From the NCBI GenBank assembly GCA_902634325.1, contig CACPJP010000009.1, positions 1 through 35,585 of the forward strand: a stretch of DNA of 35,585 bases, in the 5' to 3' direction. The DNA is from an uncultured Pelagibacteraceae bacterium (GTDB lineage Bacteria; Pseudomonadota; Alphaproteobacteria; Pelagibacterales; Pelagibacteraceae). Below, piece by piece: positions 770-16,593 of the stretch. How positions within the stretch are numbered: position 1 is the stretch's first letter; each line of letters opens with the position of its first letter. The position numbers and the translations under genes were made by a program. Below the pieces are notes generated by a model. That model did not search any database. It had not been told where the DNA came from and saw only the letters and a program-made list of their open reading frames with translations.

Positions 770-771
770 AA

Positions 772-1208
772 ATGATAGAAAAAGTTATATATAAAAAAAA
801 GTTACAAGCACTAATTGTTAGAGGAAAATATAGAAAAAAAAAGGTATAACCTTTTTTACTCCAAATGAATCAGTGCAGCAATTTGGTTATATGAATCATA
901 AAAAAACTCATGTTATTAAACCTCATTTACACAAAAAAAGAAAAAGTACAAGAATTTCACATACCAGCGAAGTCCTTCTAATAATGAAAGGAGTTATAAG
1001 AGTTGATTTTTATAATTCCTCAAAAAAATATTTATTGAGCAAGGTTTTGAGAGAGAAAGATATTATAATGCTTGTACATGGTGCTCATGGTTTTAAAGTT
1101 CTCAAAGATGTTGAGATGCTCGAAGTTAAACAAGGACCTTATAGCTTAATCAAAGACAAGGTTAAATTTGAAAAAGTAGATGAAAAAAAAATTAAGATCA
1201 AAAAATAA
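772..1208 (+). pseudogene. WxcM/FdtA-type cupin (sugar 3,4-ketoisomerase-like), frameshifted at an A9 run
   Basis: The family N-terminus, starting MIEKVIYKKKLQALIVRG, is encoded from ATG 772 but ends at TAA 847-849. The rest of the cupin continues in the next frame from about 843 (GITFFTPNESVQQFGYMN) to the stop at 1206-1208. The two pieces join at nine consecutive A (834-842); one more A would give a single continuous protein of about 145 residues. The cupin core is clear: HVIKPHLH metal-binding type histidines, a SEVLLIMKGVIRVDFY strand pair and the ending EMLEVKQGPY. Relatives act on dTDP-keto-sugars next to an aminotransferase, and a DegT gene does follow. The GTG at 873 that opens the longer downstream frame is an internal valine, not a real start. 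This could be a true mutation, an assembly error in a homopolymer, or a slippage-rescued gene. Confidence 0.75.
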
Positions 1209-2334
1209 ATTCATACCTGTAAACGTACCAAGAATCTTCAAAGAAGAAAAAGTTAATGTTAAAGACTGTATGGATACAGGATGGATTTCATCTGAAGGTT
1301 CGTATGTGAAAAAATTTGAAAGTAAATTTGCTAAATATAATAAAAGAAGTTATGCGATAGCAGTATCAAGCGGTACAGCAGCTCTCGAAATTGCAATTAA
1401 ATCTTTAAGTTTAAAAAGGGGTGATGAGATTATAATTCCAACTTTTTCAATAATATCGACTGTATTGTGTGTTATCAAATTTGGATTAAAGCCAGTATTA
1501 GTAGATTCTAATTTAAACACTTGGAATATGGATGTTGATGAGGTTATAAAAAAAATAACAAACAGAACAAAAGCTATAATTGTTACTCATATTTATGGAT
1601 TTCCTGTCGATATGAGAAAAATTTTAAATATAGCAAGAAAAAGGAGAATAAGAATTGTTGAAGATGCAGCCGAAATGATAGGTCAGACTTATTACAACAA
1701 AAAGTGTGGTAGCTTTGGAGATATAAGTACTTTTAGTTTTTACGCCAACAAACATATTACCACAGGTGAAGGAGGAATGATTTTAACTAATGAAAAAAAA
1801 TTGTATCAAAAGTGCAAATCATTAAGAAATTTATGTTTTGGAGATGGAAAAAATAGATTTAATCATGATGATATAGGATGGAATTACCGTATGACTAATT
1901 TACAAGCAGCAGTTGGGTGTGGACAATTAAAAAATATTTCGTGGATTATAAAAAGAAAAAGAGAAATTGGCAGAAGATATATGTCTTTATTAAGAAAAAG
2001 TAAAAAAATTCACATTCAACCTTATAAACTAAAATATTCTACAAATATATTTTGGGTTTATGGAGTTCTTTTAAAAAAAGGCATTGGTATTTCAAGAGAT
2101 AGAGTTGTTAAAAAACTAATGAATAGTAATATACAAACAAGAAATTTTTTCTTTCCAATGCACAAGCAAAAGATATTTAAAAAAATGAAAGTGTTTTCAA
2201 AAAACAAAAGGTTCAATAATGCTGATTTATTGTCGCAAAATGGATTTTATTTGCCCTCTGGCCTAGGAATAAGTAATTCAGAAATAGATTATGTAGGAAA
2301 AACATTGCTCCAAGTCTTAGAAAATAATATATAA
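1180..2334 (+). CDS. DegT/DnrJ/EryC1 family PLP-dependent sugar aminotransferase
   Basis: A 384-residue aminotransferase of the sugar-nucleotide type (PseC, PglE, perosamine synthetase group). It converts a keto-sugar nucleotide to an amino sugar using pyridoxal phosphate. Visible marks are the phosphate-binding SSGTAALE near residues 63-70, the EDAAE acid that holds the cofactor ring near 161-165, and the Schiff-base lysine K191 in FYANKHITTGEGG. The length is normal. The start at 1180 overlaps the 3' end of the cupin gene by 29 bases. Pairing with a keto-isomerase-like cupin fits synthesis of a 3- or 4-amino deoxy sugar for a surface glycan, but the exact sugar cannot be told. Confidence 0.88.
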   Translation: MKKKLRSKNKFIPVNVPRIFKEEKVNVKDCMDTGWISSEGSYVKKFESKFAKYNKRSYAIAVSSGTAALEIAIKSLSLKRGDEIIIPTFSIISTVLCVIKFGLKPVLVDSNLNTWNMDVDEVIKKITNRTKAIIVTHIYGFPVDMRKILNIARKRRIRIVEDAAEMIGQTYYNKKCGSFGDISTFSFYANKHITTGEGGMILTNEKKLYQKCKSLRNLCFGDGKNRFNHDDIGWNYRMTNLQAAVGCGQLKNISWIIKRKREIGRRYMSLLRKSKKIHIQPYKLKYSTNIFWVYGVLLKKGIGISRDRVVKKLMNSNIQTRNFFFPMHKQKIFKKMKVFSKNKRFNNADLLSQNGFYLPSGLGISNSEIDYVGKTLLQVLENNI

Positions 2335-2339
2335 ACCCA

Positions 2340-3125
2340 ATGCAAAAGAAAAAAATTCTCGTAATGGGACTTCCCGGATCTGGAAAAAGTTATCTTTGTG
2401 AAAGATTGTCAAAATTAATTGATGCTACTTGGATTAATGCAGATCAAGTTAGAAAAGATGCAAATGATTGGGATTTTAGTCCCGAAGGAAGATTGAGGCA
2501 ATCAAATAGGATGCGTAAACTATCTGAGAAAGCAATTAATGAAGGCAAGCACGCTTTAGCAGATTTTGTTTGTCCAACCCAAAAAACCAGAACAGATTTT
2601 AAAGCAGATTTTGTTATATGGATGAATACTATTTCCAAAGGTAGATTTGAAGATACAAATAAAATGTTCCAAGTTCCTGAAAAAAATGAAGTTAATTTTA
2701 TAGTTAAAGAAAAAAATGCAGATTTATATAAATTTTTGATTGCTGATAAAATTGAAAATTATACTTGGGATGATAAAAAACCTACAGCTCAAATGTTAGG
2801 AAGATGGCAGCCTTGGCATACTGGACATCAAAAATTATTTGAGGAAATCATAAAAAAAACTGGGCAAGTTAATATTATGGTTAGAGATGTAAAGGGGGTT
2901 GGAGATAATCCTTTTGATTTTAAAACAGTTGAAAAAAATATAAAGGAGGCTCTAAAAGATTTTAAAAATAGAATAAAAATCACTCTAGTCCCAAACATTA
3001 CTAATATTTGTTATGGAAGAGGTGTGGGCTATAAGATTGAAGAAATAGTTTTAGACGATGAAACTCAAAAAATTTCTGCTACAAAAATAAGAAAGAAAAT
3101 GAGAGAAGAAGGTTTGCTAAATTAA
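2340..3125 (+). CDS. Fused P-loop kinase (APS-kinase-like) and HxGH nucleotidyltransferase
   Basis: A 261-residue two-domain protein. Residues 1-135 resemble adenylylsulfate kinase-type P-loop kinases, with Walker A GLPGSGKS at 10-17 and a conserved NADQVRKD near 33-40. Residues about 145-261 form a cytidylyltransferase-like domain with GRWQPWHTGH (HxGH-type signature, HTGH at 160-163) and ISATKIR at 245-251, the counterpart of the ISSTxxR motif. The order suggests that one polypeptide phosphorylates a small molecule and then transfers a nucleotide to it, giving an activated donor group. Sulfate activation is possible from the kinase half, but no sulfurylase partner is visible. It starts 5 bases after the aminotransferase, so it is probably in the same operon and serves surface-glycan decoration. 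Confidence 0.78.
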   Translation: MQKKKILVMGLPGSGKSYLCERLSKLIDATWINADQVRKDANDWDFSPEGRLRQSNRMRKLSEKAINEGKHALADFVCPTQKTRTDFKADFVIWMNTISKGRFEDTNKMFQVPEKNEVNFIVKEKNADLYKFLIADKIENYTWDDKKPTAQMLGRWQPWHTGHQKLFEEIIKKTGQVNIMVRDVKGVGDNPFDFKTVEKNIKEALKDFKNRIKITLVPNITNICYGRGVGYKIEEIVLDDETQKISATKIRKKMREEGLLN

Positions 3126-3142
3126 TAGGGTTCTTTGTACTC

Positions 3143-4801
3143 TTATTTTATTAATTTTAGTCTAATATAAAAATCATATATTCTTTGTTCGAATAAATTG
3201 TTTGGAAAAAAATCTTTTCGAAAGAAATTTTTTAAAAATCTATATATTCTTATTGGTCTTGAAAGGTATATTGCAAGGTAAGACAACGCAAATCCAATAA
3301 ATCTTAAAAAAATTAACATTTTACTTGAAACATTTTCACAATACGATTGCGATTGTGTAAAATCCATATAAACCATCAACTTTTTAAAGTAATCATCATC
3401 AACGTTTATTTTTTTTTCTTTTTTTAACTTTTCAAACAATTCTGATCCTGGATAAGGTGAAAACATTGAGTATATAACGTCTGAAACACCAAATCTTAAA
3501 GAGCAGTAAACTCCAAAAAAAACTGACTTTAAACAATCAAGCAATGTTTCATGAGGAAACCCGAGAATAAAATTTAGTTTTACTGTATGACCTACTTTAA
3601 CAGCAGACTTTATACTTTTTACAAGTCTATCTAACTTAACTCTTTTTTTTATCATGTTAAGACTTTTTTCGCTTCCGCTTTCTGGAGCATAACAAATAAA
3701 GGCGCAGCCTGATTCATAAAGGGCCTTTAAAGTTTCTTCATCTAATACTTCAGATCTCGTTCCTATAGGTAGCTGCCATGTAATATTATTTATATTTCTT
3801 TTTTTAAGTTCATTACAAAAATCTAAAATCCAATCTTTTTTAATTATTGCAGTTAGATCAAAAAATTCAAAATCGTTAGCTTTATATTCTTTTATTAACC
3901 ATTCAATTTCGTCCACAATTTCTTTGGGATCTCTCATTATATATCTTGTAGTCCACATGGTTGGGCTAGAACAGAAAGTACATTGATATGGGCATCCTCT
4001 AGTAGCTAAGATAGGCATATTTCTAAGCTTACCCTTAGCCAAACCAATAGTAAAAAAATCTGTAAAATAATTTTCAGGTTTTAATAAATGCCATGCTGGT
4101 CTGGGAAGTTTATCAATATGTTGAATCCTTTTACTTGGTCCGTTATCAATAAATTTATTTTCCTTATTGTTGATGAAAGATATTCCCGGTATATCTTGTA
4201 CACTCTTGTTGGTAAACAAATTGTGAGTAAACTCAAGCATTGAAAATTCACCTTCTCCTCTAATGACATAGTCAATTGATGGGCAATCTCTCAAGGTATA
4301 CTCTGGTATAGCCGAAGGATGTTCACCTCCAGCAACTATAATAATTTTTGGAAATTTCTTTTTTATTCTTTGAATAAGTATTTTATGCATAGGCCATTCT
4401 TGAGAAAACATTAAAGATATACCAAAAATAAAAGTGTTAGGATCAATACTTTCTAATATTTCTTGTGATGTTAATCCCTGGAGATTATAAAGATTGTCTT
4501 CAGACCTTTTTACTTTTACTAGCTTTTGTTCACCGGTAGAATCAATAATTCTAGTCTTATACCCAGCTTTTTCAAGAACCCCTCCTACGTAAGCAAGACC
4601 CAAAGGCAAAGTGACAGGTTGGCTATATGAATACTTTGGTAAAACAGCAAAAGGCCTACATAGTGTTACGACTCTCTTGTCATTATTTGGCGCTTTGAAA
4701 GAATTTAGCGAAGAATCCATTTGTCTTGGATCTAACTCTTTCACCCAGTTTCGATTTGGAGTGTGTGCTGGTTTAAAAATTATATCATCTTTTTTTAACA
4801 T
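3143..4801 (-). CDS. B12-binding-type radical SAM protein
   Basis: A 552-residue class B type radical SAM enzyme. The N-terminal part (about 45-190) has the cobalamin-binding Rossmann layout with PLGLAYVGGVLEKAGY and the VAGGEHPSAIPE stretch near 156-167. The radical SAM core follows, with cysteines 270, 274 and 277 in RGCPYQCTFC binding the 4Fe-4S cluster that cleaves S-adenosylmethionine. Such enzymes often methylate or rearrange unreactive carbons; the substrate is not evident. The gene converges with the kinase fusion, with 17 bases between stops. Its ATG is only 15 bases from the 3' end of the tRNA-Thr remnant, and AAAGGAAA upstream may serve as ribosome binding site. Before the island arrived the gene would have stood directly behind tRNA-Thr. 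Confidence 0.85.
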   Translation of the reverse strand: MLKKDDIIFKPAHTPNRNWVKELDPRQMDSSLNSFKAPNNDKRVVTLCRPFAVLPKYSYSQPVTLPLGLAYVGGVLEKAGYKTRIIDSTGEQKLVKVKRSEDNLYNLQGLTSQEILESIDPNTFIFGISLMFSQEWPMHKILIQRIKKKFPKIIIVAGGEHPSAIPEYTLRDCPSIDYVIRGEGEFSMLEFTHNLFTNKSVQDIPGISFINNKENKFIDNGPSKRIQHIDKLPRPAWHLLKPENYFTDFFTIGLAKGKLRNMPILATRGCPYQCTFCSSPTMWTTRYIMRDPKEIVDEIEWLIKEYKANDFEFFDLTAIIKKDWILDFCNELKKRNINNITWQLPIGTRSEVLDEETLKALYESGCAFICYAPESGSEKSLNMIKKRVKLDRLVKSIKSAVKVGHTVKLNFILGFPHETLLDCLKSVFFGVYCSLRFGVSDVIYSMFSPYPGSELFEKLKKEKKINVDDDYFKKLMVYMDFTQSQSYCENVSSKMLIFLRFIGFALSYLAIYLSRPIRIYRFLKNFFRKDFFPNNLFEQRIYDFYIRLKLIK

Positions 4802-4816
4802 ATTTACTGTTTCCTT

Positions 4817-4864
4817 TGGTGCCCCACACGGACTCGAACCGCGAACCTACTGATTACAAATCAG
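4817..4864 (-). repeat. attL: duplicated 3' half of tRNA-Thr
   Basis: These 48 bases match 15164-15212 from the anticodon stem through the CCA end, except that one C is missing from the run that makes the acceptor stem (GCCCC instead of GCCCCC). The match stops exactly at the 5' side of the anticodon stem, so no 5' half exists and this is not a functional tRNA. It is the distal attachment repeat left by integration into the tRNA gene. The missing base suggests the copy has drifted without selection for tRNA function. Confidence 0.92.
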
Positions 4865-4931
4865 ATGTGATGGGTTTTTCATCTCTTATTAAGTAGGATT
4901 CTAAACGATTGTGGAGTTCACCGTCAAATAA

Positions 4932-4949
4932 AATCTCACAACACAACAC
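4932..4949 (+). repeat. Island terminal repeat, left copy
   Basis: AATCTCACAACACAACAC is an exact 18-base match, in the same orientation, to 15046-15063. The AC-rich composition stands out from the A/T-rich background. It lies about 68 bases inside attL. An arm-type recombinase binding site or a replication/packaging mark are possible roles; neither can be shown from sequence. Confidence 0.75.
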
Positions 4950-4976
4950 TTAGAAATTTTTTAAAGTTATATGAAT

Positions 4977-5005
4977 TTGTATTTTAGATGTTATAGTTTT
5001 ATTAA
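4977..5005 (+). promoter_or_regulatory. Possible promoter of the cytosine methyltransferase
   Basis: TTGTAT (4977-4982) and TATTAA (5000-5005) are separated by 17 bases. The predicted transcription start near 5012 would leave a very short leader before ATG 5022. The hexamers match only part of the consensus and such matches are common in AT-rich DNA. Confidence 0.3.
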
Positions 5006-5021
5006 TAACGTTACTGATTCT

Positions 5022-6041
5022 ATGAAGAAATTAAAATCTATAGATTTATTCGCCGGTGTCGGCGGAATGCGGCTTTCACTTAATAAAGCTCTCAAAAAAA
5101 TGGGTCTTGAAGATAACTGCAAATTGTATTCAGAAATAAATCTATACTGTCGACAAACATACGACGCCAACTTTCCTGATACTCCTTTAATTAAAGACAT
5201 AAAATCAATCCAAAGAAAAGATATTCGGAATAAAATTCCCGATCATGATATTCTTCTTGCTGGTTTTCCCTGCCAACCTTTTTCAAAAGCAGGAATTTCA
5301 AATAGAAACTTCCTAAAAAGACCCCACGGCTTTAATGATAAAAGCCAGGGCAATTTATTCTTTTATATATTGGAAATTATAAATAAAAAAAAACCTAAGG
5401 CTTTTCTTCTAGAAAATGTTCAACATTTACAGAATTATGATAATGGCAATGCCTTAAAGCTAATACTGGGATCACTTAGAAAAAATTACTATGTACCAGA
5501 ACCTGAAATTTTAGATGCAAAAGATTTTGGCTTAGCACAGCAAAGAAGGAGAATTTTTATAGTAGGTTTTTTGAAAAAAAATGCAAATTTCATTTATCCA
5601 AAACCCACATATAAAAATACAAAAGTTGCAGATTTTTTAGATTGCCATCCAAAAAAAAAATATATTATTTCTGATCTGCTTTGGGAAAGTCACCAAAAAA
5701 GAAGAAAAAGAAATGAAATGGCGGGCAAAGGTTTTGGTTATAAAATGACATATCCTGCGGATAGATTCACAAGAACTATATCTTCCAGATATTTTAAGGA
5801 TGGCGGAGAATGTTTAGTTTATAGGGGTAAAAATAATAATCCAAGAATGCTGTCTCCAAGGGAGATTTTCAGACTGCAAGGTTTCCCTGAAAGCTTTAAA
5901 ATACCAGTATCAAATACGCAAGCCTACCAACAGGCTGGGAATGCAGTTCCCATTAGTGTTGTAGAAAAAATTTGTATTAATATTATTGATTATCTGCTTG
6001 ATAAAGAAAAAAATAAAACTTTAAAACTAAAAGCTGGTTAA
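5022..6041 (+). CDS. DNA C5-cytosine methyltransferase
   Basis: Transfers a methyl group from SAM to carbon 5 of cytosine in a specific DNA sequence; 339 residues, within the usual range. All core motifs are visible: motif I DLFAGVGG (8-15), motif IV GFPCQPFS (81-88) with catalytic Cys84, motif VI ENV (131-133), motif VIII QQRRRIFIVG (173-182), and motif X QAGNAVP near the C-terminus. The target-recognition region lies between about 220 and 275 and is short. The start is taken at ATG 5022 because the family normally begins just before motif I; an in-frame ATG at 4971 would add 17 unlike residues. The stop is 7 bases from the stop of the convergent AIPR gene. It is presumably the protective or marking enzyme of the defence cluster. 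Confidence 0.93.
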   Translation: MKKLKSIDLFAGVGGMRLSLNKALKKMGLEDNCKLYSEINLYCRQTYDANFPDTPLIKDIKSIQRKDIRNKIPDHDILLAGFPCQPFSKAGISNRNFLKRPHGFNDKSQGNLFFYILEIINKKKPKAFLLENVQHLQNYDNGNALKLILGSLRKNYYVPEPEILDAKDFGLAQQRRRIFIVGFLKKNANFIYPKPTYKNTKVADFLDCHPKKKYIISDLLWESHQKRRKRNEMAGKGFGYKMTYPADRFTRTISSRYFKDGGECLVYRGKNNNPRMLSPREIFRLQGFPESFKIPVSNTQAYQQAGNAVPISVVEKICINIIDYLLDKEKNKTLKLKAG

Positions 6042-6048
6042 TGTAAGA

Positions 6049-8055
6049 CTATATAATATCGGCTTCTTCTGCTTTAACAATTGTTTTTAATGCACTCTTC
6101 GCTTGTTTGGGAGATGGTTGTCTTTTCCAGTTTTGTAGTGATTGACCCCAGAGACTTTGCAAGATTTGTATTTGGATATAATGGACATCGTCTCTTTCCA
6201 TTGCCCAAACAATAATTTTTTCCCAATCTTTTGTGGCTATACTTTTGCATTTTTTAATATTATCCATATCTTCTGGTGAAAATAGTTCTTTTGTTGATTT
6301 GACAGATTTTCCAGATAATTTTTTTACATTTGTAAACTCGGGTGGAGTTTTTGTAAAATCAAAATTTCTGTCAACTAAATCCTCCCAGCACTCTTCCTTT
6401 TTACACCATTCGGAAATATTTTTTCCCTTGGCAGTTTTTTGTATTGTTTCATAGATCTTAAGTGTCCATTTGTTAATTAAATCCTTAAATTCACGCGACA
6501 AATCTTGATCAATCCAAATTAAATTAAAATTTATTTTTCTACTGGTGTTGTATGATATCATTGAGACAGTATAATTAAGAACTTGGGATCTATATCCAGC
6601 GATAGAACTATTATTTTTTATTATTTTTGCAGTTTTATTAAATAAAATTGAAATTGCACAATACTTTTGAAAAAAATCTTCGTCAGGATTTTCATGAAAT
6701 TTTTTATCATTGAGTGATTTCATAAAAGTAACAAAGTTTTTCTGGGCGCCCATACATGCTATATGTGGATCTAAATAATGCCAACAATTAATATATTTTG
6801 CTAAATCTTCTTTGGTAAATTTCATATTTGGGAGAGACACTTCAAGAAGTTTAGATTTTTTATTTTTACCAAGATCTTTTTGTTTCATTTTTTGTAACTG
6901 ATATTCTCCTCTCATTCTTTCATAAAACCATAGCTGACCTTGTGAAGTTCTTATTTTATTTGAAAGTTTTTTTATCTTCATGTGAAATTCATGATTTGAT
7001 GAGAAGTCAGCTTTCTTAACAACATTCTGTGTATTGGCAGAACTTGAAATTTTTGGAACAATTTCTTCAATATCTTCTTTTTTAACAAGTGTAATTTTAC
7101 CAGGAACCATTACATCAGTAAAATTTGCGCTATTTTGTTTTTTAGTTCTAAAGAGTGTAGCTACAGTTTGTCCTCCATTAACAATTTGAAATCCACTCGC
7201 AGAGGTAAGGTATGATCCCTCTTTATCCTGGGCAATTTCAATATTATCAACTACAACTGCTATACCATTGTTATAAGAAAAAAAACGTGAAGGCTCTTCT
7301 AAAAGTGTTTCTTGTATTCCGCGATTAATTTTTGTTTTTAACTGAAGAAAAGATCTTACATTTAAATTCATTAATCTTTGTCCAAAAAGCTTATAAATGT
7401 TATAGAGCACTTCGCCTGGAAAAATTGCCATATAACTGCTAATTTTATTTTTAGTTTTATGAGCAAGCATACAACGTACTTTATGTTTAGATCTTGTAAA
7501 ATCTATATAGATGTCGGTGGATTCGGCGCCGCCCAAACTTGATTTATAAATTTGATTTAGATCATAGAGATAATTCTGAAATTCAATCTTACCCTCTTTT
7601 CTTGTTTTGGGAAGAGTACTACAAACACAATTGGTAAATACAAAAATTCTAACGGTAGTTATATCACTAGAATTATTAAATATAGTTTTTGATATATCGT
7701 AAGCTTCCTCTTTTGAGTTTATTTTTTGATAAAGTTTTTTGGTTGATTGTAAATAAAAATTTTTTGCATATTCAATTAGTTCAAGAATTTTTCCAAACTT
7801 TATTTCTTCGATCTTTTCTGAAGAATCATAGTGTGTTATAAATAAATCAAGTCTTTTTTCTTCCTCGCTAAATGAAAATCCATTTATTTGACTCTTGTCC
7901 TTTTCAAAATATTTAAGTTCATAATCAGAAATTGATCCATTATCATACAGTATATCAGTGTATATTTTTGTAAGGGTTGAACTAGGCTGTTCTTCCGTAT
8001 CTTCAATTTCATTTTTAATTCTAAAAAAAAATTCTTTTAGTTCAGTGCTTTTCAT
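6049..8055 (-). CDS. AIPR-domain protein (abortive infection phage resistance family)
   Basis: A 668-residue protein recognised from the AIPR signature: RFFSYNNGIA (257-266), QIVNGGQTVATL (290-301) and SSANTQNVVKKADFSSN (338-354). Members sit in restriction-like clusters and phage resistance loci; their biochemical activity was not settled to my knowledge, although a nuclease or nucleic-acid-binding role is often suggested. The N-terminal 200 residues and the C-terminal third show no motif I recognise. It is the last gene of the minus-strand operon, and its start overlaps the DUF4420 gene by 4 bases (ATGA type), so translation is probably coupled. It ends against the convergent methyltransferase. 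Confidence 0.88.
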   Translation of the reverse strand: MKSTELKEFFFRIKNEIEDTEEQPSSTLTKIYTDILYDNGSISDYELKYFEKDKSQINGFSFSEEEKRLDLFITHYDSSEKIEEIKFGKILELIEYAKNFYLQSTKKLYQKINSKEEAYDISKTIFNNSSDITTVRIFVFTNCVCSTLPKTRKEGKIEFQNYLYDLNQIYKSSLGGAESTDIYIDFTRSKHKVRCMLAHKTKNKISSYMAIFPGEVLYNIYKLFGQRLMNLNVRSFLQLKTKINRGIQETLLEEPSRFFSYNNGIAVVVDNIEIAQDKEGSYLTSASGFQIVNGGQTVATLFRTKKQNSANFTDVMVPGKITLVKKEDIEEIVPKISSSANTQNVVKKADFSSNHEFHMKIKKLSNKIRTSQGQLWFYERMRGEYQLQKMKQKDLGKNKKSKLLEVSLPNMKFTKEDLAKYINCWHYLDPHIACMGAQKNFVTFMKSLNDKKFHENPDEDFFQKYCAISILFNKTAKIIKNNSSIAGYRSQVLNYTVSMISYNTSRKINFNLIWIDQDLSREFKDLINKWTLKIYETIQKTAKGKNISEWCKKEECWEDLVDRNFDFTKTPPEFTNVKKLSGKSVKSTKELFSPEDMDNIKKCKSIATKDWEKIIVWAMERDDVHYIQIQILQSLWGQSLQNWKRQPSPKQAKSALKTIVKAEEADII

Positions 8056-9032
8056 ATATTTTTCAAAAACTCATCTTCCATAATTCTAAAACTTTCACAT
8101 TTTTCAAGATCAATTTTGTAAGTTATAGAAAGGTCAGATATTTCAAGAGGAACTTCAACTTTTTTAATATAGGGAAAATCGTCACTTATTTTGTAATAGT
8201 TTGTCTTATCAACTGAATATTTTTCCATATACTCATCTTTATGCATGTCTAGGTATCTACATTGAGTTAATTTTAATAAAAAATCATTATGTAAGTTTGC
8301 AGATTCAATTTTTAATTTATTTATATACTCATCAATTATTCCATTTAGTGAAATTCCAGAGCTTGATTTCTTCATTTGTAAAAAAACAAGATCCAATCTT
8401 TTATCAAAAACAGGGGCTATTTGATTAGTACTTGATGTATTAATTTTTTTTGTATTGGTAACGGTTGTTTTGACTTCTATCAATTTGTTTTCTGTCGTAA
8501 AATCATGTTTTTTTGAAGGACCTGTCCATGAAGATATTGCATTTTCATTAGTCAATTTTTTTGTAAGAATTTTGCTCAAAACATAAACCTCGCCGTATAA
8601 GCCTATCTCGGATTCTTTAGTAAGTTTTCTTGGCAAGTCTTCATCTTCAAAGAAATTTTTTCCTGAATTTAATTCTTCAAAGAAAAGTTGAATGCTTTTT
8701 AGTCCTGATAGTTTATTAAGGTAAATTTTTGCAATAATAAGATTTACAATTTTAATAAAAAAGTCCTCATGATTTTTGTTATTTAAATACATTTCTATAA
8801 CGTTTGAGCCAAAAACTATTTCCCAGCCCTTTGCTTTTGGAAAAATATTTTCACTAACTTTTTGAGTGTTTTTTAATTTAATTCTTATTCCAGGAAGATC
8901 TTTTTTATTAATTGTGTACCAAAAATTATCAAAAGCTAAAATTTCTACTGATTTATTTTTATCTTCCTTTCTTAATAAATTTAATTTTTTCCATAATTTG
9001 CCGAGTTTTGTATAATAATCATCTATATTCAT
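8052..9032 (-). CDS. DUF4420-type PD-(D/E)XK motif protein, probable nuclease subunit
   Basis: A 326-residue protein with a restriction-endonuclease-like active site in its middle: the helix GLYGEVYVLSKIL carries E148, then WTGPSKKHDFTTENKLIEVKTT carries D177, E186 and K188, a complete E...D...ExK set. The WxGP-x4-HDF spacing is typical of the DUF4420 group associated with Z1/MutL clusters. It most likely cuts DNA when directed by the ATPases of the operon. The N-terminal part, with FPKAKGWEIVFG around residues 64-75, also fits the family. It overlaps its downstream partner by 4 bases and shares one base with the Z1 gene upstream, so it is tightly embedded in the operon. Confidence 0.87.
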   Translation of the reverse strand: MNIDDYYTKLGKLWKKLNLLRKEDKNKSVEILAFDNFWYTINKKDLPGIRIKLKNTQKVSENIFPKAKGWEIVFGSNVIEMYLNNKNHEDFFIKIVNLIIAKIYLNKLSGLKSIQLFFEELNSGKNFFEDEDLPRKLTKESEIGLYGEVYVLSKILTKKLTNENAISSWTGPSKKHDFTTENKLIEVKTTVTNTKKINTSSTNQIAPVFDKRLDLVFLQMKKSSSGISLNGIIDEYINKLKIESANLHNDFLLKLTQCRYLDMHKDEYMEKYSVDKTNYYKISDDFPYIKKVEVPLEISDLSITYKIDLEKCESFRIMEDEFLKNI

Positions 9033-12000
9033 TAACTGTATAAGTCAGGATCAAAAATTTCTTTGTACTCCGCCATTCTACGTTCTCTGGCGGGCTCATT
9101 CATTGCAACATTATATATGAGTTGATCTTCGTCGTTCTCATCTCTACTAGGTGGTATTATAATCTGCCAACCAATATAGATATCTTTGTCTTTATCGAAT
9201 CCTTTATCTAAAAGCTTTGTTGACCAAGGATAAATTATAAATAATCCTTCTTTTCTTTTTTGTCTAATTTTTGGTTTAAAGCTGTCAGGCAGCCAATTAA
9301 CTGTTTTTCTTTTAATAACACATTTCCCTGTTTTTTTATAAAGGTTTATCCAACTATCAACACCTTCATTAAATACTTCTTTTTTAATATCCATAAATTC
9401 TGCATTAGGATCTTGCAAAGTTTTGATTGAAAAAATATCTGCTGGCTTGATTGGCGTCCGTTGTTGTATAGCCAACTCGATTTTTCCTTTTTTAAATTTA
9501 ATTAAAGGATATTCTTTTGATTTTTTAATACTAAATAAACCAAGGTTCCAATTACTAATTTTTTTATACTTGCTAAGTAAATTAATTTGAGTTGCAATTA
9601 ATTTACATGTCCAATCCCTCATTGTTGGTGGACTTTTATATTTTGCAAAATAATTGATCAACAATTTTACATCTATATTTCTCCATAAATAAGCATCTTT
9701 TAAAGTAACAACTTTAGAATTTTTTGAAATTTTTTCTTTTATTTCATTTAAAGATAAGTTTATATCTATTTTATTTTCACTGTCTCCAGTAATTGCTTTT
9801 GGTATCCAAATATTACCTTTTAATAGGTTTTTGTTTATTTGATCGGTTCTTTCATAGCTGTCCGGAAGTTTGTCAATAAGTTCATTTGTGATCTTAATAT
9901 TATAAAGTCTTTCTTCTTTTGAATAATAAACAATAGGAGTATGATTCTTTGCTGAAAACGATGAAAAAGGCTCCTTTATAACTAAAATGTCTTTCGCCTT
10001 CGTTTTAGAAACAAGGTTCCAGCCTGGAAAACATGGAACTTCAACGGCATAGTCTTCGGGACTTAATTCTAAATCCATCAATTCAGCAAACTTTTCTCTT
10101 GCTTTTTCCATTGTAAATGAAAATTGTCTAAACAAAACATGCAATGTCTTTGGGCAATAAACTCTCCATAAATCTTCATAGCCCTTTCTATATCCAAACC
10201 ATCTTCCCATTTGTATTAAAGTGTCCGAAGCTGGTATTTTTGCTATTCTTAAAAAGTAACTTACAGAAAGTCCATCAAGAGTAAGTCCTCTTGAAAGAGC
10301 AGCTCCACCAACAACTATTACATTCCACCCATTTTTTTTTTCCTCATAAGCAAGATTATCATCTGATGTACTATTAATTCTTATTAATTCAATTTTTTTA
10401 GAATCTTCTGTTAAAAGTAATAATATTTTATTCCAAATTTTCTCAAATTTGATTTGCTTATCCTCTGGATATTTTGTTGTATCTATATTTTTTTTAATAT
10501 CATTTTCCCAAATATTGATAAATTCTTTTTTTATTGTATCTGTGGTTTTTGCATCTTGGCCATAGCTGATTTTTTCTGTTAAATCATCTAGATATTTTTT
10601 TATTTGACCCATAATTATATTCTGAACATTTGTAAATCTACTAACGTGAACAAGCATAGAATTATGATGTGCTTCCTTTATTCTAAATGACTTGATAGCA
10701 ATATTTATATAAAATGAATTTATTGCATCTTTCAAACTTTGAGGTATCGTGTCTTCCTCTTTGTAACGGCATGAGTGTGAGATCCCGTGATACAATGGAA
10801 GCCATCCATTAACTGGGTCTTCTCCTTTTTTACCTTCTTTTCTATACTTCTCATCTCTTTTTTTTTCATCTAATTTACCATTTTTCATGAAATCCGGAGC
10901 ATCAAAATCATCTCTATAATCATATACCCATTTGACTTGTGGTTTTTCATCCTTATCAATTTGTTCTGACAAACTCACAATTTCATTATCTGGATCATAA
11001 TTTTTCTCAGCCACGCCAAAGACATCTTCTGGACCAATATGAGAATCATAACGTGGAAGCAGTTTTATAAAATCTCGAGGAAAAATATCTAAGCCTTCAT
11101 CATATTTAAATGAGGAATAATTAATAAAAGCGTTAGCCAGCGGTGTTGCTGTATAGCCAACATACGCACTTTTTACAAAACATTGTAATATTTTTCTTAT
11201 CAATTGATTTGTTTTTGAAGGATCAGCATTTCTAAAAGTTTCAAGCTCTTCTTCGGTCATGTCACTTTGTGATTTCTTTGACTTTCTCGCAGAAATATCT
11301 ATTGATGCACTATCACATTCGTCATCTATGATTAATATAGGCTGAGAGCACATTAATTGAAATTTTGGAAGTTTTTTTAGAATATCTTTATTACTCCATT
11401 TAACTTCATCCCATTTCCATTCTTTATCTTTATTTATTGGCATTCCTTTTTGTCCATCAAGCCAAATAAGTATATTTGTTAAAATAGGCACAATTTTTTT
11501 GCATACTATTATCAGTGGATCTTTATGTGTAATTGATATTTTTTCTGCAGTATTTAGATCAAAATCATTTTCTACTTCTACTTTTCTAATTCCTTCTGGG
11601 TAATGATATTTGGGTCTTTTGGTTGCAAAAAAAACTTTGTTACAATCTCCTTTTTGAGAAGCTGAAATAAGATTTTCTTCTAATCTTTTTTGAGTTTGTG
11701 CTCTTAATGAATTGTGTAAACCAGTTAATACTATTATTATTTTATATCCTGAATCTACCGCTTTAGCTATTAATCCTGTGTAATTTGATGTTTTTCCTGA
11801 TTGAACATCTCCCACGACCATTCCTTTTGTTTCCCATTTTCCTTGTCTCTTTGGGTCTTCTAAGTCAGATAAAATTGAGTCTGTCGACGTGTCCATATCA
11901 ATAAATGCACTTCCTAATTTAGATGCAATTTTACTTTTATAATAAGCAAACTGAGAGTTTGTGCTGTTAGAATTTTTCCATAATTTTCTATTTTCAAATA

Positions 12001-12265
12001 ACCAAGGTTTATGGTCTTCTCTCTTTTTTGCTCTTAAAGTCATATCGGCTTCAATTACTTGAGCATAAGAACTATTAAGAAATTTTTTTAAATCATTTTC
12101 AAATTTTTTTGCCATTGTAAAATCTTTAAGAAAATCTTTTAGCAAATCCTCTATTTCTTTTGCTTTCGATGGATACCACTCGTTTGGATTTTTAATTTTA
12201 TTTTTAGTTGCAAAAGTTGATTTATAAGCTATCAACAAATCTATTAAATTATTTAGTTCACTCAT
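9032..12265 (-). CDS. Z1-domain superfamily II ATPase
   Basis: A 1077-residue DNA translocase/helicase-like protein. Walker A is GDVQSGKTSNY (152-162), Walker B is ILIIDDECDSAS (310-321), a motif III-like GYTATPLANAF follows, and the C-terminal lobe has GGAALSRGLTLDGL with DTLIQMGRWFGYRKGYEDL, a typical motif V/VI pair of Z1 proteins. Z1 proteins occur almost only beside MutL-like ATPases, AIPR proteins and methylases in restriction-type clusters, where they are thought to move along or remodel DNA and license the nuclease. The gene starts within the stop region of the MutL-like gene (4-base overlap) and ends one base into the next gene. Confidence 0.92.
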   Translation of the reverse strand: MSELNNLIDLLIAYKSTFATKNKIKNPNEWYPSKAKEIEDLLKDFLKDFTMAKKFENDLKKFLNSSYAQVIEADMTLRAKKREDHKPWLFENRKLWKNSNSTNSQFAYYKSKIASKLGSAFIDMDTSTDSILSDLEDPKRQGKWETKGMVVGDVQSGKTSNYTGLIAKAVDSGYKIIIVLTGLHNSLRAQTQKRLEENLISASQKGDCNKVFFATKRPKYHYPEGIRKVEVENDFDLNTAEKISITHKDPLIIVCKKIVPILTNILIWLDGQKGMPINKDKEWKWDEVKWSNKDILKKLPKFQLMCSQPILIIDDECDSASIDISARKSKKSQSDMTEEELETFRNADPSKTNQLIRKILQCFVKSAYVGYTATPLANAFINYSSFKYDEGLDIFPRDFIKLLPRYDSHIGPEDVFGVAEKNYDPDNEIVSLSEQIDKDEKPQVKWVYDYRDDFDAPDFMKNGKLDEKKRDEKYRKEGKKGEDPVNGWLPLYHGISHSCRYKEEDTIPQSLKDAINSFYINIAIKSFRIKEAHHNSMLVHVSRFTNVQNIIMGQIKKYLDDLTEKISYGQDAKTTDTIKKEFINIWENDIKKNIDTTKYPEDKQIKFEKIWNKILLLLTEDSKKIELIRINSTSDDNLAYEEKKNGWNVIVVGGAALSRGLTLDGLSVSYFLRIAKIPASDTLIQMGRWFGYRKGYEDLWRVYCPKTLHVLFRQFSFTMEKAREKFAELMDLELSPEDYAVEVPCFPGWNLVSKTKAKDILVIKEPFSSFSAKNHTPIVYYSKEERLYNIKITNELIDKLPDSYERTDQINKNLLKGNIWIPKAITGDSENKIDINLSLNEIKEKISKNSKVVTLKDAYLWRNIDVKLLINYFAKYKSPPTMRDWTCKLIATQINLLSKYKKISNWNLGLFSIKKSKEYPLIKFKKGKIELAIQQRTPIKPADIFSIKTLQDPNAEFMDIKKEVFNEGVDSWINLYKKTGKCVIKRKTVNWLPDSFKPKIRQKRKEGLFIIYPWSTKLLDKGFDKDKDIYIGWQIIIPPSRDENDEDQLIYNVAMNEPARERRMAEYKEIFDPDLYS

Positions 12266-13449
12266 TTTAATCCCTTTATTGAAGTTTCAATTTTTGAAAG
12301 ATCTTCATCCGAAAGTACTTTATTTTTAAGCATTTTAATAAGCTCTTGTTTCTTTTTTAATTTTTCATCCACTGGTTCTTTGCTACTCTCATTATCTTCC
12401 ATTGTATTAATTTTTTCTAAATAATCTTTCCTTATTTTAATTAGACTTTTTCGCATTTTACTTGCTGCATAGTCTGGTATATTTACCTTATTTTTGGAAT
12501 GGGTTATCCAATCTCTGCTTGTTTCTATAGGAATCTCAACTTCAATTCTAAGTCTATTAAATTTTTCACTTGAACTCCAAAATCTATCCGTGTTTTTCTC
12601 TCCAAGCCCAAACCAACCGCCAAAATCAATTACTCTATTTTTTCTTAAGAAATATAAACCCTGTAGATCATTTTTACTTTTTCCCAAGTTTTCTTTTCCT
12701 GTATCCGCTGGAATTATATATGGTCTTAATATTGTTTTTCCCCCTTTAAGAAAACTGATCTCTGAATTTTCTAACTTTATAGTATTACTATCATTCTTAT
12801 AAAATGGATCAAAAGCTTTTGTTTTATTGTGAGTCTCTGTTCCGTTAAAATATAAATTTATTTGATTATTTAATAAGTACTTGTGATAAATTATTTTAAA
12901 ATGTTTTTTTGCTTTATCGCAATCATCATAAAAATTTGGACCTCTGTCTATAGCATGAAATTTTGAAATTCTATCTAATTCAGACCATAGAATAATTGTT
13001 CCACTTTTTTGATTTGTAAATTTATCTAAATGCTTCACTATAAATTTATGATTTATAGAACTTGGCATTTCATCAGTAATTCCATCTTTTAAACTAAGAG
13101 TTTTTCTAAGTAATTTATTTTTTTTAGTTATAACTGTAATAGATTTGCAATGATTGAATGAGCCAGTTTTTAATCCTAATCCATAAACCGAATGATCCTT
13201 TTCTCCCTGATCAACATGTTCATTTTTTGGAACTGCTAAAGCTTTATTAATAAGTTCGTTTTCGTCCATACCATTTCCATCATCCACAACCATTATAAAA
13301 GAATTTTTTCCTGAATCATCGCTCCAGTACATATAAGTCCAAATATTTTTTGCATTGTGTGTAATGCTATTATCCGCAAGTTCAGCTAACGATTGTTGTA
13401 ACGTATAACCCTGTGATCTAGTTTTTTCTAAATAAAAAGTTAATTCCAT
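12262..13449 (-). CDS. MutL/MORC-like GHKL ATPase
   Basis: A 395-residue ATP-binding protein of the Hsp90/MutL/histidine-kinase fold. The N box is LAELADNSI, with E23, D26 and N27 for Mg-ATP. The G1 box is VVDDGNGMD (54-62) and the ATP lid has YGLGLKTGSFNHC (89-101). Beyond residue 190 the sequence fits the S5-like second domain of MutL/MORC relatives (SRDWITHSKNK). In this class ATP binding is thought to clamp DNA and signal to the Z1 helicase. The longer frame begins at 13527 inside the previous gene, but ATG 13449 starts 4 bases after that gene's stop and begins directly at the conserved domain, so I chose it. The charged C-terminal tail, residues about 340-395, is probably a coiled coil. 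Confidence 0.88.
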   Translation of the reverse strand: MELTFYLEKTRSQGYTLQQSLAELADNSITHNAKNIWTYMYWSDDSGKNSFIMVVDDGNGMDENELINKALAVPKNEHVDQGEKDHSVYGLGLKTGSFNHCKSITVITKKNKLLRKTLSLKDGITDEMPSSINHKFIVKHLDKFTNQKSGTIILWSELDRISKFHAIDRGPNFYDDCDKAKKHFKIIYHKYLLNNQINLYFNGTETHNKTKAFDPFYKNDSNTIKLENSEISFLKGGKTILRPYIIPADTGKENLGKSKNDLQGLYFLRKNRVIDFGGWFGLGEKNTDRFWSSSEKFNRLRIEVEIPIETSRDWITHSKNKVNIPDYAASKMRKSLIKIRKDYLEKINTMEDNESSKEPVDEKLKKKQELIKMLKNKVLSDEDLSKIETSIKGLK

Positions 13450-13453
13450 TTTG

Positions 13454-13792
13454 TTAGTCCTGGTCGACAAACATATCCCATTCTTCTGCAATAATTTGAA
13501 AAGCAAACAATTCTTTTTGGTGAACAATTTTATCTGTTGCGACCATTTCTGATAATAACTTTATAGTTTTTTCTTTATCTTCCTTGACTTGAATTTTTTT
13601 TGAAATTTTTCTGCACTCTTCTGTAATATTTTCAACTTTTTCAACTTCTCTAACAATTTCATCGAGTTTTTCTTTTGAAATTTTTAACTTATTGGAAAGA
13701 TCATTTATCAATTCCTTTTCCTCTGCCATATAGACCTTGTCTGCAAATGCCATTAGAAGAACAAGTTTAAGAATTTTGTCGTTATTATTCAT
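13454..13792 (-). CDS. Small TerB-like protein, first cistron of the defence operon
   Basis: A 112-residue, helical, strongly charged protein. Residues 8-37 (KLVLLMAFADKVYMAEEKELINDLSNKLKI in part) and 79-105 (the LSEMVATDKIVHQKELFAFQ region) read like the two acidic helical halves of TerB folds, in which an AD...G/M...E pattern places carboxylates for a metal. TerB-like domains occur in tellurite-resistance and several phage-defence gene sets; their action is poorly known. The start has a good Shine-Dalgarno (GAGGGA) a few bases upstream, and the stop is 4 bases from the ATPase ATG. Leading the operon suggests a sensor or regulatory role, which is inference. The family call comes from pattern only and is moderate. 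Confidence 0.65.
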   Translation of the reverse strand: MNNNDKILKLVLLMAFADKVYMAEEKELINDLSNKLKISKEKLDEIVREVEKVENITEECRKISKKIQVKEDKEKTIKLLSEMVATDKIVHQKELFAFQIIAEEWDMFVDQD

Positions 13793-13813
13793 ATTCCCTC
13801 ATTTTTATAATAA

Positions 13814-13821
13814 AGTATACT
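13814..13821. promoter_or_regulatory. Palindromic -10 element in the divergent intergenic region
   Basis: GTATAC at 13815-13820 is palindromic, so a TATACT hexamer can be read on both strands (13816-13821 plus, 13814-13819 minus). It sits in the only gap (13793-13907) between the minus-strand operon and the plus-strand nuclease-like gene, about 25 bases from the TerB-like start. No convincing -35 box is seen, so this is a candidate only. Confidence 0.3.
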
Positions 13822-13857
13822 ATAGCAAAACAAGAAAATGGAAAGCTTATGGCGAAG

Positions 13858-13927
13858 AGATAAACGAAGAAACGAGAAATAAAAGAAGAATGGTGAAAAA
13901 AAGATAAATGAAGAAACAAGAGATAAG
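13858..13927 (+). repeat. Imperfect 26-base direct repeat across the nuclease-like gene start
   Basis: Positions 13858-13883 and 13902-13927 align over 26 bases with four differences, offset by 44. The second copy contains the start codon (GATAAATGAAGAAAC); in the first copy the same place reads ACG. It may be an old tandem duplication of the translation start or an operator pair. Confidence 0.5.
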
Positions 13928-14405
13928 TATAAATAAAATGGATTTTAGCAAATTAAATGATGATGAAGTTGTTAATATTTATCCAGAAGTTTTAAAAGAA
14001 CTTAAAACACGAGGAATAATAAAAACTAATAATCTTATTGGAGATCTTGGAGAATATTTAGCAATTAAAACATATTCGGAAACTCCTGGTTTGCCAAAAC
14101 TACAAGATGCCCCCGCAAGTACAAAAAATATTGATGCAATTAGCACCAAGGGTGAAAGATATGCAATCAAATCAAGTTCAGGAACGGGAACAGGTGTTTT
14201 TGCTAGCCTTCCAACAGAAGATGATAATAAAATCTATTTTGAATACTTAATATTAGTCTTATTTGATAAAAATTATATTCTTCAAGAAATTTATGAATTA
14301 ACTTGGGAACAGTTTAAAAAACTGCGTGTTATGAAAACTCCCGAAAATAAATGGAATCTACCAATAACAAATACAGTTAAAAAAGGAGCTAAAAAAATAA
14401 AATAA
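13908..14405 (+). CDS. Small restriction-endonuclease-like protein (DUF6998-type), divergent from the operon
   Basis: A 165-residue protein. LIGDLGEYLAIK (43-54) supplies E49; NIDAISTKGERYAIKSSS (74-91) supplies D76 and K88, which together read as a PD-(D/E)XK fold core. The residue two before the lysine, normally E or Q, is A86, so the site is either variant or relies on E49 and D76 alone. The C-terminal VKKGAKKIK is basic and may touch DNA. It is transcribed away from the TerB-like gene across a shared 115-base gap. It may be a second effector of the same system or separate cargo. The family name is from memory of the motif pattern and is tentative. Confidence 0.6.
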   Translation: MKKQEISINKMDFSKLNDDEVVNIYPEVLKELKTRGIIKTNNLIGDLGEYLAIKTYSETPGLPKLQDAPASTKNIDAISTKGERYAIKSSSGTGTGVFASLPTEDDNKIYFEYLILVLFDKNYILQEIYELTWEQFKKLRVMKTPENKWNLPITNTVKKGAKKIK

Positions 14406-14472
14406 ATAAAAAATCTCTTTTTGAACAAAATTGTGACCTAATAAAACCATTCTACTATGTTCTAAAAGCATA

Positions 14473-15042
14473 GTGCGAATTTATTTAACTTTATTTCTTG
14501 TTATAGTTTGGACATTTCTGATCCTAGTTCCTTTAAAAACTTATGCTGAAGATGAAACCTTTACATGTAAACCTGTTGTTGCGGGCATGCCAAAAAAAGA
14601 TGGTGGTTTTTATGTAGAAGATTTGCATGACGAGTCTACTCCAATATTAGATATTATTCCTGACAATCAATTTCGTTTAGTAGGCGAAGATAAAAATGTA
14701 TATTTTAAAAATAATTCGTCTAGAAAGTTTGAAGTGCTGGTTCCTTATGAAAGAATATCAGATATAAAAGAAATTCGAGAAATACAAGAAGGATTAAGTA
14801 GTTGGGATGATATTATTTCACTTGAAAATTTTAGAACCTATTATTTAAAATATTTTGGTGACGATGGGTCAGAATCCTTAAAGAGAATTAGTATTAATGA
14901 AAAAAATACCAGAACTGCAATCCTTACTGTTCCTATGGCTGACTATCCTTCATACTTTACTCTTTTTAATTGCAAGTCAGATTATGTAAAAGAATCTATT
15001 CCAGCAGATTTTCCGGATAATCCATTTAATAAAATCTCATAA
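14473..15042 (+). CDS. Secreted protein of unknown function, island cargo
   Basis: A 189-residue protein with a clear signal peptide: MRIYLTLFLVIVW, a hydrophobic core to about residue 22, then a likely signal peptidase I site after KTYA (about residues 23-26). There is no lipobox cysteine. The mature part has two cysteines (in FTCKPV and FNCKSD) that could pair, one near each end, and is rich in acidic residues. I do not recognise the family. GTG 14473 is the only start that keeps the signal peptide, because a TAG lies directly upstream in frame. It lies between the nuclease-like gene and the right end of the island, so it may be exported cargo such as a surface or receptor-masking protein, or simply a passenger. 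Confidence 0.65.
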   Translation: MRIYLTLFLVIVWTFLILVPLKTYAEDETFTCKPVVAGMPKKDGGFYVEDLHDESTPILDIIPDNQFRLVGEDKNVYFKNNSSRKFEVLVPYERISDIKEIREIQEGLSSWDDIISLENFRTYYLKYFGDDGSESLKRISINEKNTRTAILTVPMADYPSYFTLFNCKSDYVKESIPADFPDNPFNKIS

Positions 15043-15045
15043 AAT

Positions 15046-15063
15046 AATCTCACAACACAACAC
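15046..15063 (+). repeat. Island terminal repeat, right copy
   Basis: An exact 18-base match to 4932-4949 in the same orientation. Here it runs on into further CACAACA units up to about 15075, making a short AC-rich array. It begins just after the stop of the secreted-protein gene and about 100 bases inside attR. Confidence 0.75.
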
Positions 15064-15077
15064 ACAACACAACAACG

Positions 15078-15122
15078 AGTTCAACTTTCATGTTCTGTAT
15101 GCAATTTGTTCTGAACTTTTTT
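15078..15122 (+). terminator. Possible terminator after the secreted-protein gene
   Basis: AGTTCA (15078-15083) and TGAACT (15112-15117) can pair, and the second arm runs into six T (15117-15122). The stem is short and the loop long (28 bases), so the call is weak. It would separate island transcription from the opposing tRNA-Thr transcript. Confidence 0.25.
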
Positions 15123-15163
15123 AAGAGTCTATTTTTAGAAAACTAAATAAACACTTGTTTTAG

Positions 15164-15212
15164 TGGTGCCCCCACACGGACTCGAACCGCGAACCTACTG
15201 ATTACAAATCAG
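15164..15212 (-). repeat. attR: 3' half of tRNA-Thr shared with attL
   Basis: These 49 bases match 4817-4864 except for one extra C. The shared block covers the anticodon arm, T arm, acceptor 3' strand and CCA, as expected when a tyrosine recombinase crosses over near the anticodon loop. Confidence 0.92.
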
Positions 15213-15239
15213 TTGCTCTACCAATTGAGCTATGAGGGC
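15164..15239 (-). tRNA. tRNA-Thr(UGU), island integration target (attR)
   Basis: Read on the minus strand from 15239, the gene has acceptor stem GCCCTCA/TGGGGGC, a D arm with AGCTCAATTGGTAGAGC, anticodon stem ACTGA/TCAGT around loop TTTGTAA (anticodon TGT, threonine), a T arm containing GGTTCGAGTCC, and an encoded CCA end. The tRNA is complete at 76 bases with CCA. Its 3' part (15164-15212) is the right-hand attachment repeat, so the 3' half present today may have come in with the island. Confidence 0.95.
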
Positions 15240-15248
15240 CTCAGGGCT

Positions 15249-15276
15249 ATTTAACATGAAACATTAATAAATCCAA
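15249..15276 (-). promoter_or_regulatory. Candidate promoter of tRNA-Thr
   Basis: On the minus strand TTGGAT (15276-15271) and TTAAAT (15254-15249) lie 16 bases apart and about 10 bases before the tRNA 5' end, a normal distance for a tRNA promoter. The hexamers match the sigma-70 consensus partly. Confidence 0.4.
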
Positions 15277-15387
15277 TAATTCATTATTTTTTGGTAAATT
15301 CGCCTGTCTTTATTTTGCTTTAAAGATGCCTTACTGTAATTTACTATTATAATATATGATCGATAGTGTGAATTTTTCAATATTGTT

Positions 15388-16554
15388 ATGACAGATAATC
15401 CAAATAATAAAAAAAAATTAAATCAAGAACGTTTTTCAACTATTTCAGATACTAAACCTCTACAATTTCAACATCATTTGCACAAAGCTCTTTTAAAAAA
15501 AAACAAGCTACCCTCATATTTTATTTTCTTCCCAACTAGCAGATGTAATTTAAGTTGTTCGCATTGTTTTTATCATGACAGCCTTAATAAAAGATTTAAT
15601 GAATTAAGTTTGGAAGAAATAGATGCTTTTACAAAAACTATGGATCCTTTGTTGAATTTAGTACTTACTGGCGGAGAACCTTATCTTAAGCATGATTTAG
15701 ATCAAATTGTGAGAATTTTTTACCAGAACACTAAAGTTCCAATTATAACAATTCCTTCCAACGGTTGGTATCTAGATAAAATGGACAAACAAATTAAAAA
15801 TATGATGACATGGTGCCCAGAGCTTGTTTTGAATCAACTTATATCTCTTGATGGTTTAGAGGAAGATCACGATAAAATTAGAATGGGAGACAAAAATAAG
15901 GGCTCCTTCAAAAAGGCATTAGAAACAATTGAACATCTAAAAAAGTTACAAAAAAAATATGAGCGTATAAATATAGGTGTTGTCACTACGTTTACGTCTG
16001 AAAATCAAAAAAAAATGAAAGAGATAGTCACGGGAATTTATGAATTGTGCAAACCAGATAACATTGCGATAAATTTAGTTAGAGGAAGTCCCAAAGAAAA
16101 GGTTAATACTAATCTTGATATGAAATTATATAAAGATGCAGTTAGTTATAGAGATAATTTGTTTTTTTCAAAAAAAATTTCAGGGCATGGAAGATTTAAA
16201 GGAAGTAAAATAGCTACTGCCGGCAGAATTATTCTAAATCAGATGGTAGAAAAAATTTATGAAAAAAATAAATATCAAACACCTTGTTATTCCGCAAATA
16301 TTAGCGGAGTTATGTATCCAGAGGGTCAAGTTTATCCATGCGAAATATTGGGAAAGAAGCATTTGATTGGGAATATTAGAGATTTTAATTTAGATTTCAA
16401 AAAACTATGGTTATCACAAAAAGCTAAAGAAGAAATAAGTTTTATAAGAAAAACTAAATGCTTTTGTACTCACGAGTGTTTTAATCAAGTCAATATTCTT
16501 TTCAATCCAAAATTTTATCCAAAGTTAATTAAAATATCTTCTGCAATAAAATAA
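15388..16554 (+). CDS. Radical SAM/SPASM domain protein
   Basis: A 388-residue radical SAM enzyme. PTSRCNLSCSHCFYH gives the CxxxCxxC cluster cysteines C53, C57 and C60, followed by the LTGGEPYL SAM-binding segment. The C-terminal part has the SPASM/twitch cysteines: CYSANISGVMYPEGQVYPCEILG and later CFCTHECF, which hold one or two auxiliary clusters. Relatives modify peptides or small metabolites, and some act in glycan gene clusters. No precursor peptide gene is seen nearby. It precedes a glycosyltransferase by 39 bases on the same strand, so a surface-modification role is possible. It lies outside the island repeats. Confidence 0.88.
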   Translation: MTDNPNNKKKLNQERFSTISDTKPLQFQHHLHKALLKKNKLPSYFIFFPTSRCNLSCSHCFYHDSLNKRFNELSLEEIDAFTKTMDPLLNLVLTGGEPYLKHDLDQIVRIFYQNTKVPIITIPSNGWYLDKMDKQIKNMMTWCPELVLNQLISLDGLEEDHDKIRMGDKNKGSFKKALETIEHLKKLQKKYERINIGVVTTFTSENQKKMKEIVTGIYELCKPDNIAINLVRGSPKEKVNTNLDMKLYKDAVSYRDNLFFSKKISGHGRFKGSKIATAGRIILNQMVEKIYEKNKYQTPCYSANISGVMYPEGQVYPCEILGKKHLIGNIRDFNLDFKKLWLSQKAKEEISFIRKTKCFCTHECFNQVNILFNPKFYPKLIKISSAIK

Positions 16555-16593
16555 ATAATATAGACAAATAAATTTTAAAAATTTAAAATCAAA

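Follow-up and report, generated by a model that had tools for sequence, protein, structure and literature searches.

The MZA system, encoded by mzaABCDE, was reportedly defined by Gao et al. in 2020. Its first protein, MzaA, is described in the NCBIfam model NF041931 as a sigma-70 factor. A gene-language study (PMC9523054) describes a Type II putative defense system composed of Z1, DUF4420, a C5 methyltransferase, AIPR, and a MORC-type ATPase, which is ~20% identical to MzaBCDE and has MzaA in only a few members. In 2008, Iyer, Abhiman and Aravind described paraMORC restriction-modification clusters (PMC2292703), and the legend to their Figure 2 includes Candidatus Pelagibacter among the species. 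TerB-like proteins are known from other defense systems. Shango (PMC10250203), which unites a TerB-like protein, an ATPase, and a helicase, gives modest protection of P. aeruginosa PAO1 against several phages. A table of defense domains (PMC10952713) has entries for TerB in both Shango and Bunzi but assigns it no activity. Phage defense that combines TerB, an ATPase, and a helicase is thus already known from Shango and is not new as such.

Here we analyzed a window of 35,585 nucleotides, contig 9 in the assembly of an uncultured Pelagibacteraceae bacterium (727 kb, 61% completeness); the nearest named loci to the one described here are from Pelagibacteraceae single cells. The window harbors at 5022–13792 a cluster of six genes, five on the minus strand and one convergent with them on the plus strand, and all six family assignments exceed the Pfam cut-offs. 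The minus-strand genes are arranged in the order TerB-like, MutL/GHKL, Z1, DUF4420, and AIPR. The first (13454–13792) encodes a TerB-like protein of 112 residues (Pfam TerB, 5.6e-7) and is followed by the genes for a 395-residue MutL/paraMORC-type GHKL ATPase, which is MzaB-like (12262–13449; HATPase_c_3, 2e-21), a 1077-residue, MzaC-like Z1 superfamily II helicase-like protein (9032–12265; Pfam Z1, 6e-63), a 326-residue, MzaD-like DUF4420 PD-(D/E)XK nuclease (8052–9032; Pfam DUF4420, 3e-44), and a 668-residue, MzaE-like AIPR abortive-infection protein (6049–8055; Pfam AIPR, 1e-76, and AIPR_N, 2e-25). The convergent gene (5022–6041, plus strand; Pfam DNA_methylase, 4e-81) encodes a C5-cytosine DNA methyltransferase, with a frame that opens at 4971 and a conserved start at 5022. 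The Z1 protein contains a Walker A motif, GDVQSGKTSN, a Walker B motif, IDDE, and the motif QMGRWFGYR, all of which are invariant in the Z1 alignment, as are, in the DUF4420 alignment, the residues D177, E186, and K188 (D177...E186-x-K188). The initial annotation credited the TerB-like gene with a good ribosome binding site and with a stop 4 bases from the ATPase start. Indeed, GAGGGA lies immediately 5′ of the TerB ATG, and the TAA stop (13456–13454) is 4 bases ahead of the MutL ATG at 13449; an alternative listed MutL start, TTG at 13527, is upstream of this ATG and would extend into the TerB gene. Because this first gene and this order of genes are found again in three other Pelagibacteraceae genomes, as well as in a more distant alphaproteobacterial locus, the cluster is not a chance arrangement, and we regard it as confirmed.

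The first gene indeed encodes a member of the TerB family. Its score against PF05099 (30.3 bits) and those of its counterparts in four other loci (L099, 31.2; L100, 25.2; L223, 31.7; L106, 36.7) exceed the Pfam gathering threshold of 24.4 bits. An AlphaFold2 model built from five sequences (mean pLDDT of 83) contains six helices, and its best structural matches, over 105–107 residues, are to 2h5n_D (Z 8.8) and 2ou3_A (Z 8.1), the latter a tellurite-resistance protein of COG3793; the next match is a designed protein (Z 5.7). Helical bundles can attain comparable Z values without kinship, but the assignment stands because the 2ou3 and 2h5n chains were also recovered with a profile built from canonical TerB sequences and the Pfam match is independent. 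Thus, both profile and model bear out the TerB likeness originally proposed for this protein. A search of solved structures by sequence (alignment A8) returned only a chance entry. Two acidic pairs, D18-x6-E25 and D87-x6-E94, occur without exception in all five proteins, spaced as in canonical TerB (D14/E21 and D87/E94); the glycine that follows each aspartate in canonical TerB is replaced here, by lysine in the SAR11 proteins. These pairs may bind a metal or ligand. The Pfam search revealed no recognizable DNA-binding domain in the protein, and no terC, terD, or terE was seen beside its gene among the window's open reading frames, as judged by eye. TerB proteins are widespread, and TerB genes in general are common in the Pelagibacteraceae (160 of 197 genomes); most of the TerB proteins listed for this family score far higher than that of the cluster and so represent a different, canonical TerB.

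L099, L100, and L223, all of them Pelagibacteraceae loci, carry the identical six-gene set in identical order. The TerB proteins of these loci are 61–65% identical to that of the window, within the range of the other cluster genes; the C5 methyltransferase is 64–66% identical in L099 and L100 and 78% in L223. Comparison of the window with L223 by blastn gave a single unbroken 8.9-kb match (window 5021–13770, 73% identical), which ends at TerB and at the start of the methyltransferase and outside of which that comparison found nothing in common. TerB therefore belongs to the unit, and the limits first assigned to the cluster, which coincide with this match, are strongly supported. According to gene names taken from translations, the cluster is flanked by rlmB–tuf to its right in the window, by hisA/hisF/hisE in L099, and by hisG/hisZ in L223, and the six-gene unit is absent from the rlmB region in 12 genus-mates, some of whose regions span just a few kilobases. 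The different chromosomal sites, the absence from genus-mates, and the sharp ends of the match thus indicate that the unit moves as a whole, TerB included. The dN/dS values of TerB (Nei-Gojobori) are 0.09–0.20 where dS is finite and resemble those of MutL and AIPR, though they are rough since dS is near or beyond saturation; TerB is under purifying selection. In all five TerB loci the TerB stop and MutL start are no more than 4 bases apart or overlap, and the two genes are probably translated together. That TerB is a chance or passenger gene is ruled out by its conserved position and the purifying selection.

The fifth TerB locus, L106, is more distant and comes from the marine alphaproteobacterial genome AG-915-O06. 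Here the order is an RpoH-like sigma gene, TerB, MutL, Z1, DUF4420, AIPR, other genes, and the C5 methyltransferase; the TerB protein has 126 residues, its gene overlaps the MutL start, and the Z1 protein is ~31% identical to that of the window. In the Z1 tree L106 and the SAR11 group are sisters (support 94), a placement flagged as long-branch joining; the TerB form may have had a single origin. The RpoH-like sigma gene of L106 (7160–8038), which lies directly before TerB, is unlike the ankyrin-bearing MzaA. The Pelagibacteraceae locus L224, a close relative located within the SAR11 Z1 group, contains the short MutL and the remaining genes of the unit but no TerB; the position of TerB is taken by a 511-residue DUF2779 protein (10080–11615), the end of which overlaps the MutL frame. 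Therefore, TerB is not strictly essential to the SAR11 subfamily. A further case concerns L024 and L129: a SAR11 genome has Z1, DUF4420, and a pair of C5 methylases but neither MutL nor AIPR, and its Z1 pairs closely with that of a Neomarinimicrobiota MAG (end branches of 0.11 each), reflecting either recent transfer or mis-binning.

The cluster of the window lies in a variable region (~1–17600) to the left of rlmB, tRNA-Tyr, tRNA-Gly, and tuf, the contents of which differ in the genus-mates examined. A divergent gene adjoining TerB (13908–14405, plus strand) encodes a 165-residue DUF6998 protein that matches the PADLOC methyl-directed restriction enzyme model (2.5e-49); it was not found beside the six-gene unit in other loci. 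Near the MZA-like unit, on different sides, three loci (window 14473–15042, plus strand; L223 15946–16530; L224 1089–1691) encode related small proteins, 34–39% identical, that appear to carry a signal peptide. Another small protein, of ~100 residues, is common to L100 (360–653) and L223 (15453–15758), where it stands at opposite ends of the unit and is inverted. The variable region also contains a tRNA-Thr (15164–15239), which was considered as an attachment site and rejected, as no repeat of the tRNA end is present within the window.

Comparison with the MZA models (NCBIfam NF041931–NF041935; PADLOC PDLC02203–02207) gave matches to MzaB (PADLOC, 1.7e-29; NCBIfam, 5.9e-35) and, in PADLOC, to MzaC for Z1 (1.6e-103), MzaD for DUF4420 (8e-15), and MzaE for AIPR (1.1e-73). 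Together with the Pfam matches, these place the MutL, Z1, DUF4420, and AIPR set among MZA-type systems, as the initial annotation had proposed. The NCBIfam equivalog cut-offs are missed by MzaB (120.5 of 850 bits), MzaC (432.7 of 1500), MzaD (98.9 of 420), and MzaE (346.7 of 1050). MzaA is absent, there being no sigma-type gene within the cluster or just upstream of it; it is present in other loci, such as L103. Thus, the description of TerB as an added gene needs correction: TerB is integral to the unit but has not been added to a standard MZA system, as MzaA is missing and TerB stands in its position.

We surveyed 103 loci in which MutL lies directly before Z1 with sufficient upstream sequence, a set that leans to Z1 proteins resembling that of the window (best 80 of 574). 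TerB is located ahead of MutL in five of them, all from marine Alphaproteobacteria. A sigma-type gene precedes MutL in 19, among them L106 with both genes, and 80 loci have neither. The form with TerB ahead of MutL is therefore recurrent but rare, and the leading place in MZA-type systems is exchangeable, being occupied by a sigma factor, TerB, or neither. Viral contigs yielded no further TerB–MutL pairs (alignments A8 and A4) and no match to Z1 in a single-sequence search, no TerB relative was found on plasmids, and a wider search of the Pelagibacterales (alignment A9) added a single partial match (G033).

In the TerB loci MutL is short, with 395–442 residues counted from the conserved ATG compared with a median of 502 elsewhere. 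These proteins lack ~90 C-terminal residues, and alignments reveal that the MutL of the window is without the C-terminal module of canonical MzaB. In a model of the canonical MzaB-like protein of L112 this C-terminal part consists of two strands plus several helices. Profile comparison detected no similarity between TerB and this module, which at the sequence level speaks against TerB being the missing module itself. As a structural guess, TerB may serve in its place; the absence of both TerB and the module from L224 speaks against a strict exchange of one for the other.

These data suggest, with about even confidence on our part, that the cluster is a mobile, sigma-less MZA-like variant of a restriction/abortive-infection system in which TerB serves the MutL ATPase as an accessory subunit or as its gate. 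Judged from their families, the C5 methyltransferase would mark host DNA, surveillance of DNA would fall to the MutL-type GHKL ATPase together with the Z1 SF2 motor, the DUF4420 nuclease would cut what is unmarked, and AIPR would be a further, probably suicidal, effector. TerB would be an integral small subunit, most likely binding the MutL ATPase in the place of the C-terminal module known from canonical MzaB, and would gate or assemble this ATPase, possibly with its acidic pairs holding a metal or ligand. The proposal is supported by the short MutL that the TerB loci share, the tight TerB–MutL spacing, which extends to the distant L106, the conservation of the unit and the purifying selection on TerB, the canonical spacing of the acidic pairs, and the precedent of Shango; it is weakened by L224, by the absence of TerB from 98 of the 103 MutL–Z1 loci, and by the lack of profile similarity between TerB and the missing MutL module. 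As a bolder reading, which we consider rather unlikely, TerB might be a dedicated metal- or ligand-dependent switch of the MutL/MORC-type ATPase that acts in trans for the missing C-terminal module.

TerB could instead have taken over the regulatory role of MzaA. It would then sense stress or a metal and control how the operon is expressed or activated, acting ahead of the ATPase complex without being its subunit. It does occupy the position of MzaA, the first gene of canonical MZA, sigma-type genes precede MutL elsewhere in the survey, and in L106 a sigma-type gene, TerB, and MutL follow one another. However, L106 by carrying both shows that the two are not interchangeable there, the 80 loci with neither indicate that no regulator is needed in that position, and TerB is without a recognizable DNA-binding domain; we consider this role unlikely. 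The occurrence of TerB in Shango and Bunzi (PMC10952713), and the fact that L224 manages without it, would fit an independent defense or stress module with Ter-type sensing that was joined to the unit by selection for co-transfer and makes no physical contact with it. The tight or overlapping TerB–MutL junction in five of five loci, the short MutL common to them, and the lack of adjoining TerC/D/E partner genes in the window argue against such a module, which we regard as improbable. To a similar degree we doubt that TerB is a restraint that silences either the MutL ATPase or the AIPR effector in uninfected cells, such that its deletion would be toxic rather than leave the cell unprotected: as a first gene translated just ahead of the ATPase it resembles many antitoxins and inhibitors, and AIPR is an abortive-infection family in Pfam, but L224 retains the effector genes without TerB, and TerB is missing from most MZA-type loci.

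If TerB is indeed a dedicated switch that replaces the missing C-terminal module of the ATPase in trans, then, with Shango, TerB plus an ATPase plus an SF2 helicase would represent a general plan in bacterial immunity. The compact and conserved pairing with a MutL/MORC-type ATPase provides a concrete candidate partner for TerB, a domain to which the table in PMC10952713 assigns no activity, and the unit is an example of an MZA-like system carried in a variable region of a streamlined SAR11-type genome. According to the initial annotation, a TerB-like regulator is not known to have been described in this system. With respect to MZA-type systems this view holds for the literature and catalogues searched, in which no such description was found, though an earlier mention may exist elsewhere; it must be qualified by Shango, where TerB accompanies an ATPase and helicase, and by Bunzi. 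None of the three findings that would have refuted the initial annotation was obtained: the TerB fold is present, the gene is found in other homologous clusters, and the component appears in neither the catalogues nor the papers searched. As a whole that annotation is partly supported, and the role of sensor or gate that it suggested for TerB is a hypothesis.

Among known systems, Shango and Bunzi resemble the cluster, as judged by description, in their TerB-family protein (PF05099), and Shango also in its ATPase and SF2-type helicase; in contrast, Shango is described as a set of three genes, without the methyltransferase, DUF4420, or AIPR. The association described by Iyer, Abhiman and Aravind was correctly named in the initial annotation: the paraMORC clusters, in the sections of PMC2292703 covered, have the corresponding families, namely a GHKL ATPase, an SF2 helicase, an RE-fold nuclease, a cytosine methylase, and AIPR, whereas TerB was not found in those sections. 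Compared by description, the window matches the gene-content definition of the Type II system in the section of PMC9523054 covered, which does not mention a TerB component. With MZA, the cluster shares the MutL-type ATPase, Z1, DUF4420, and AIPR in identical order, with significant matches to MzaB–E. However, MZA opens with the MzaA sigma factor, whereas this unit opens with TerB and has no MzaA, its MutL is short relative to canonical MzaB, it is closed by a convergent C5 methyltransferase, and its MzaB–E scores fall far under the NCBIfam equivalog cut-offs.
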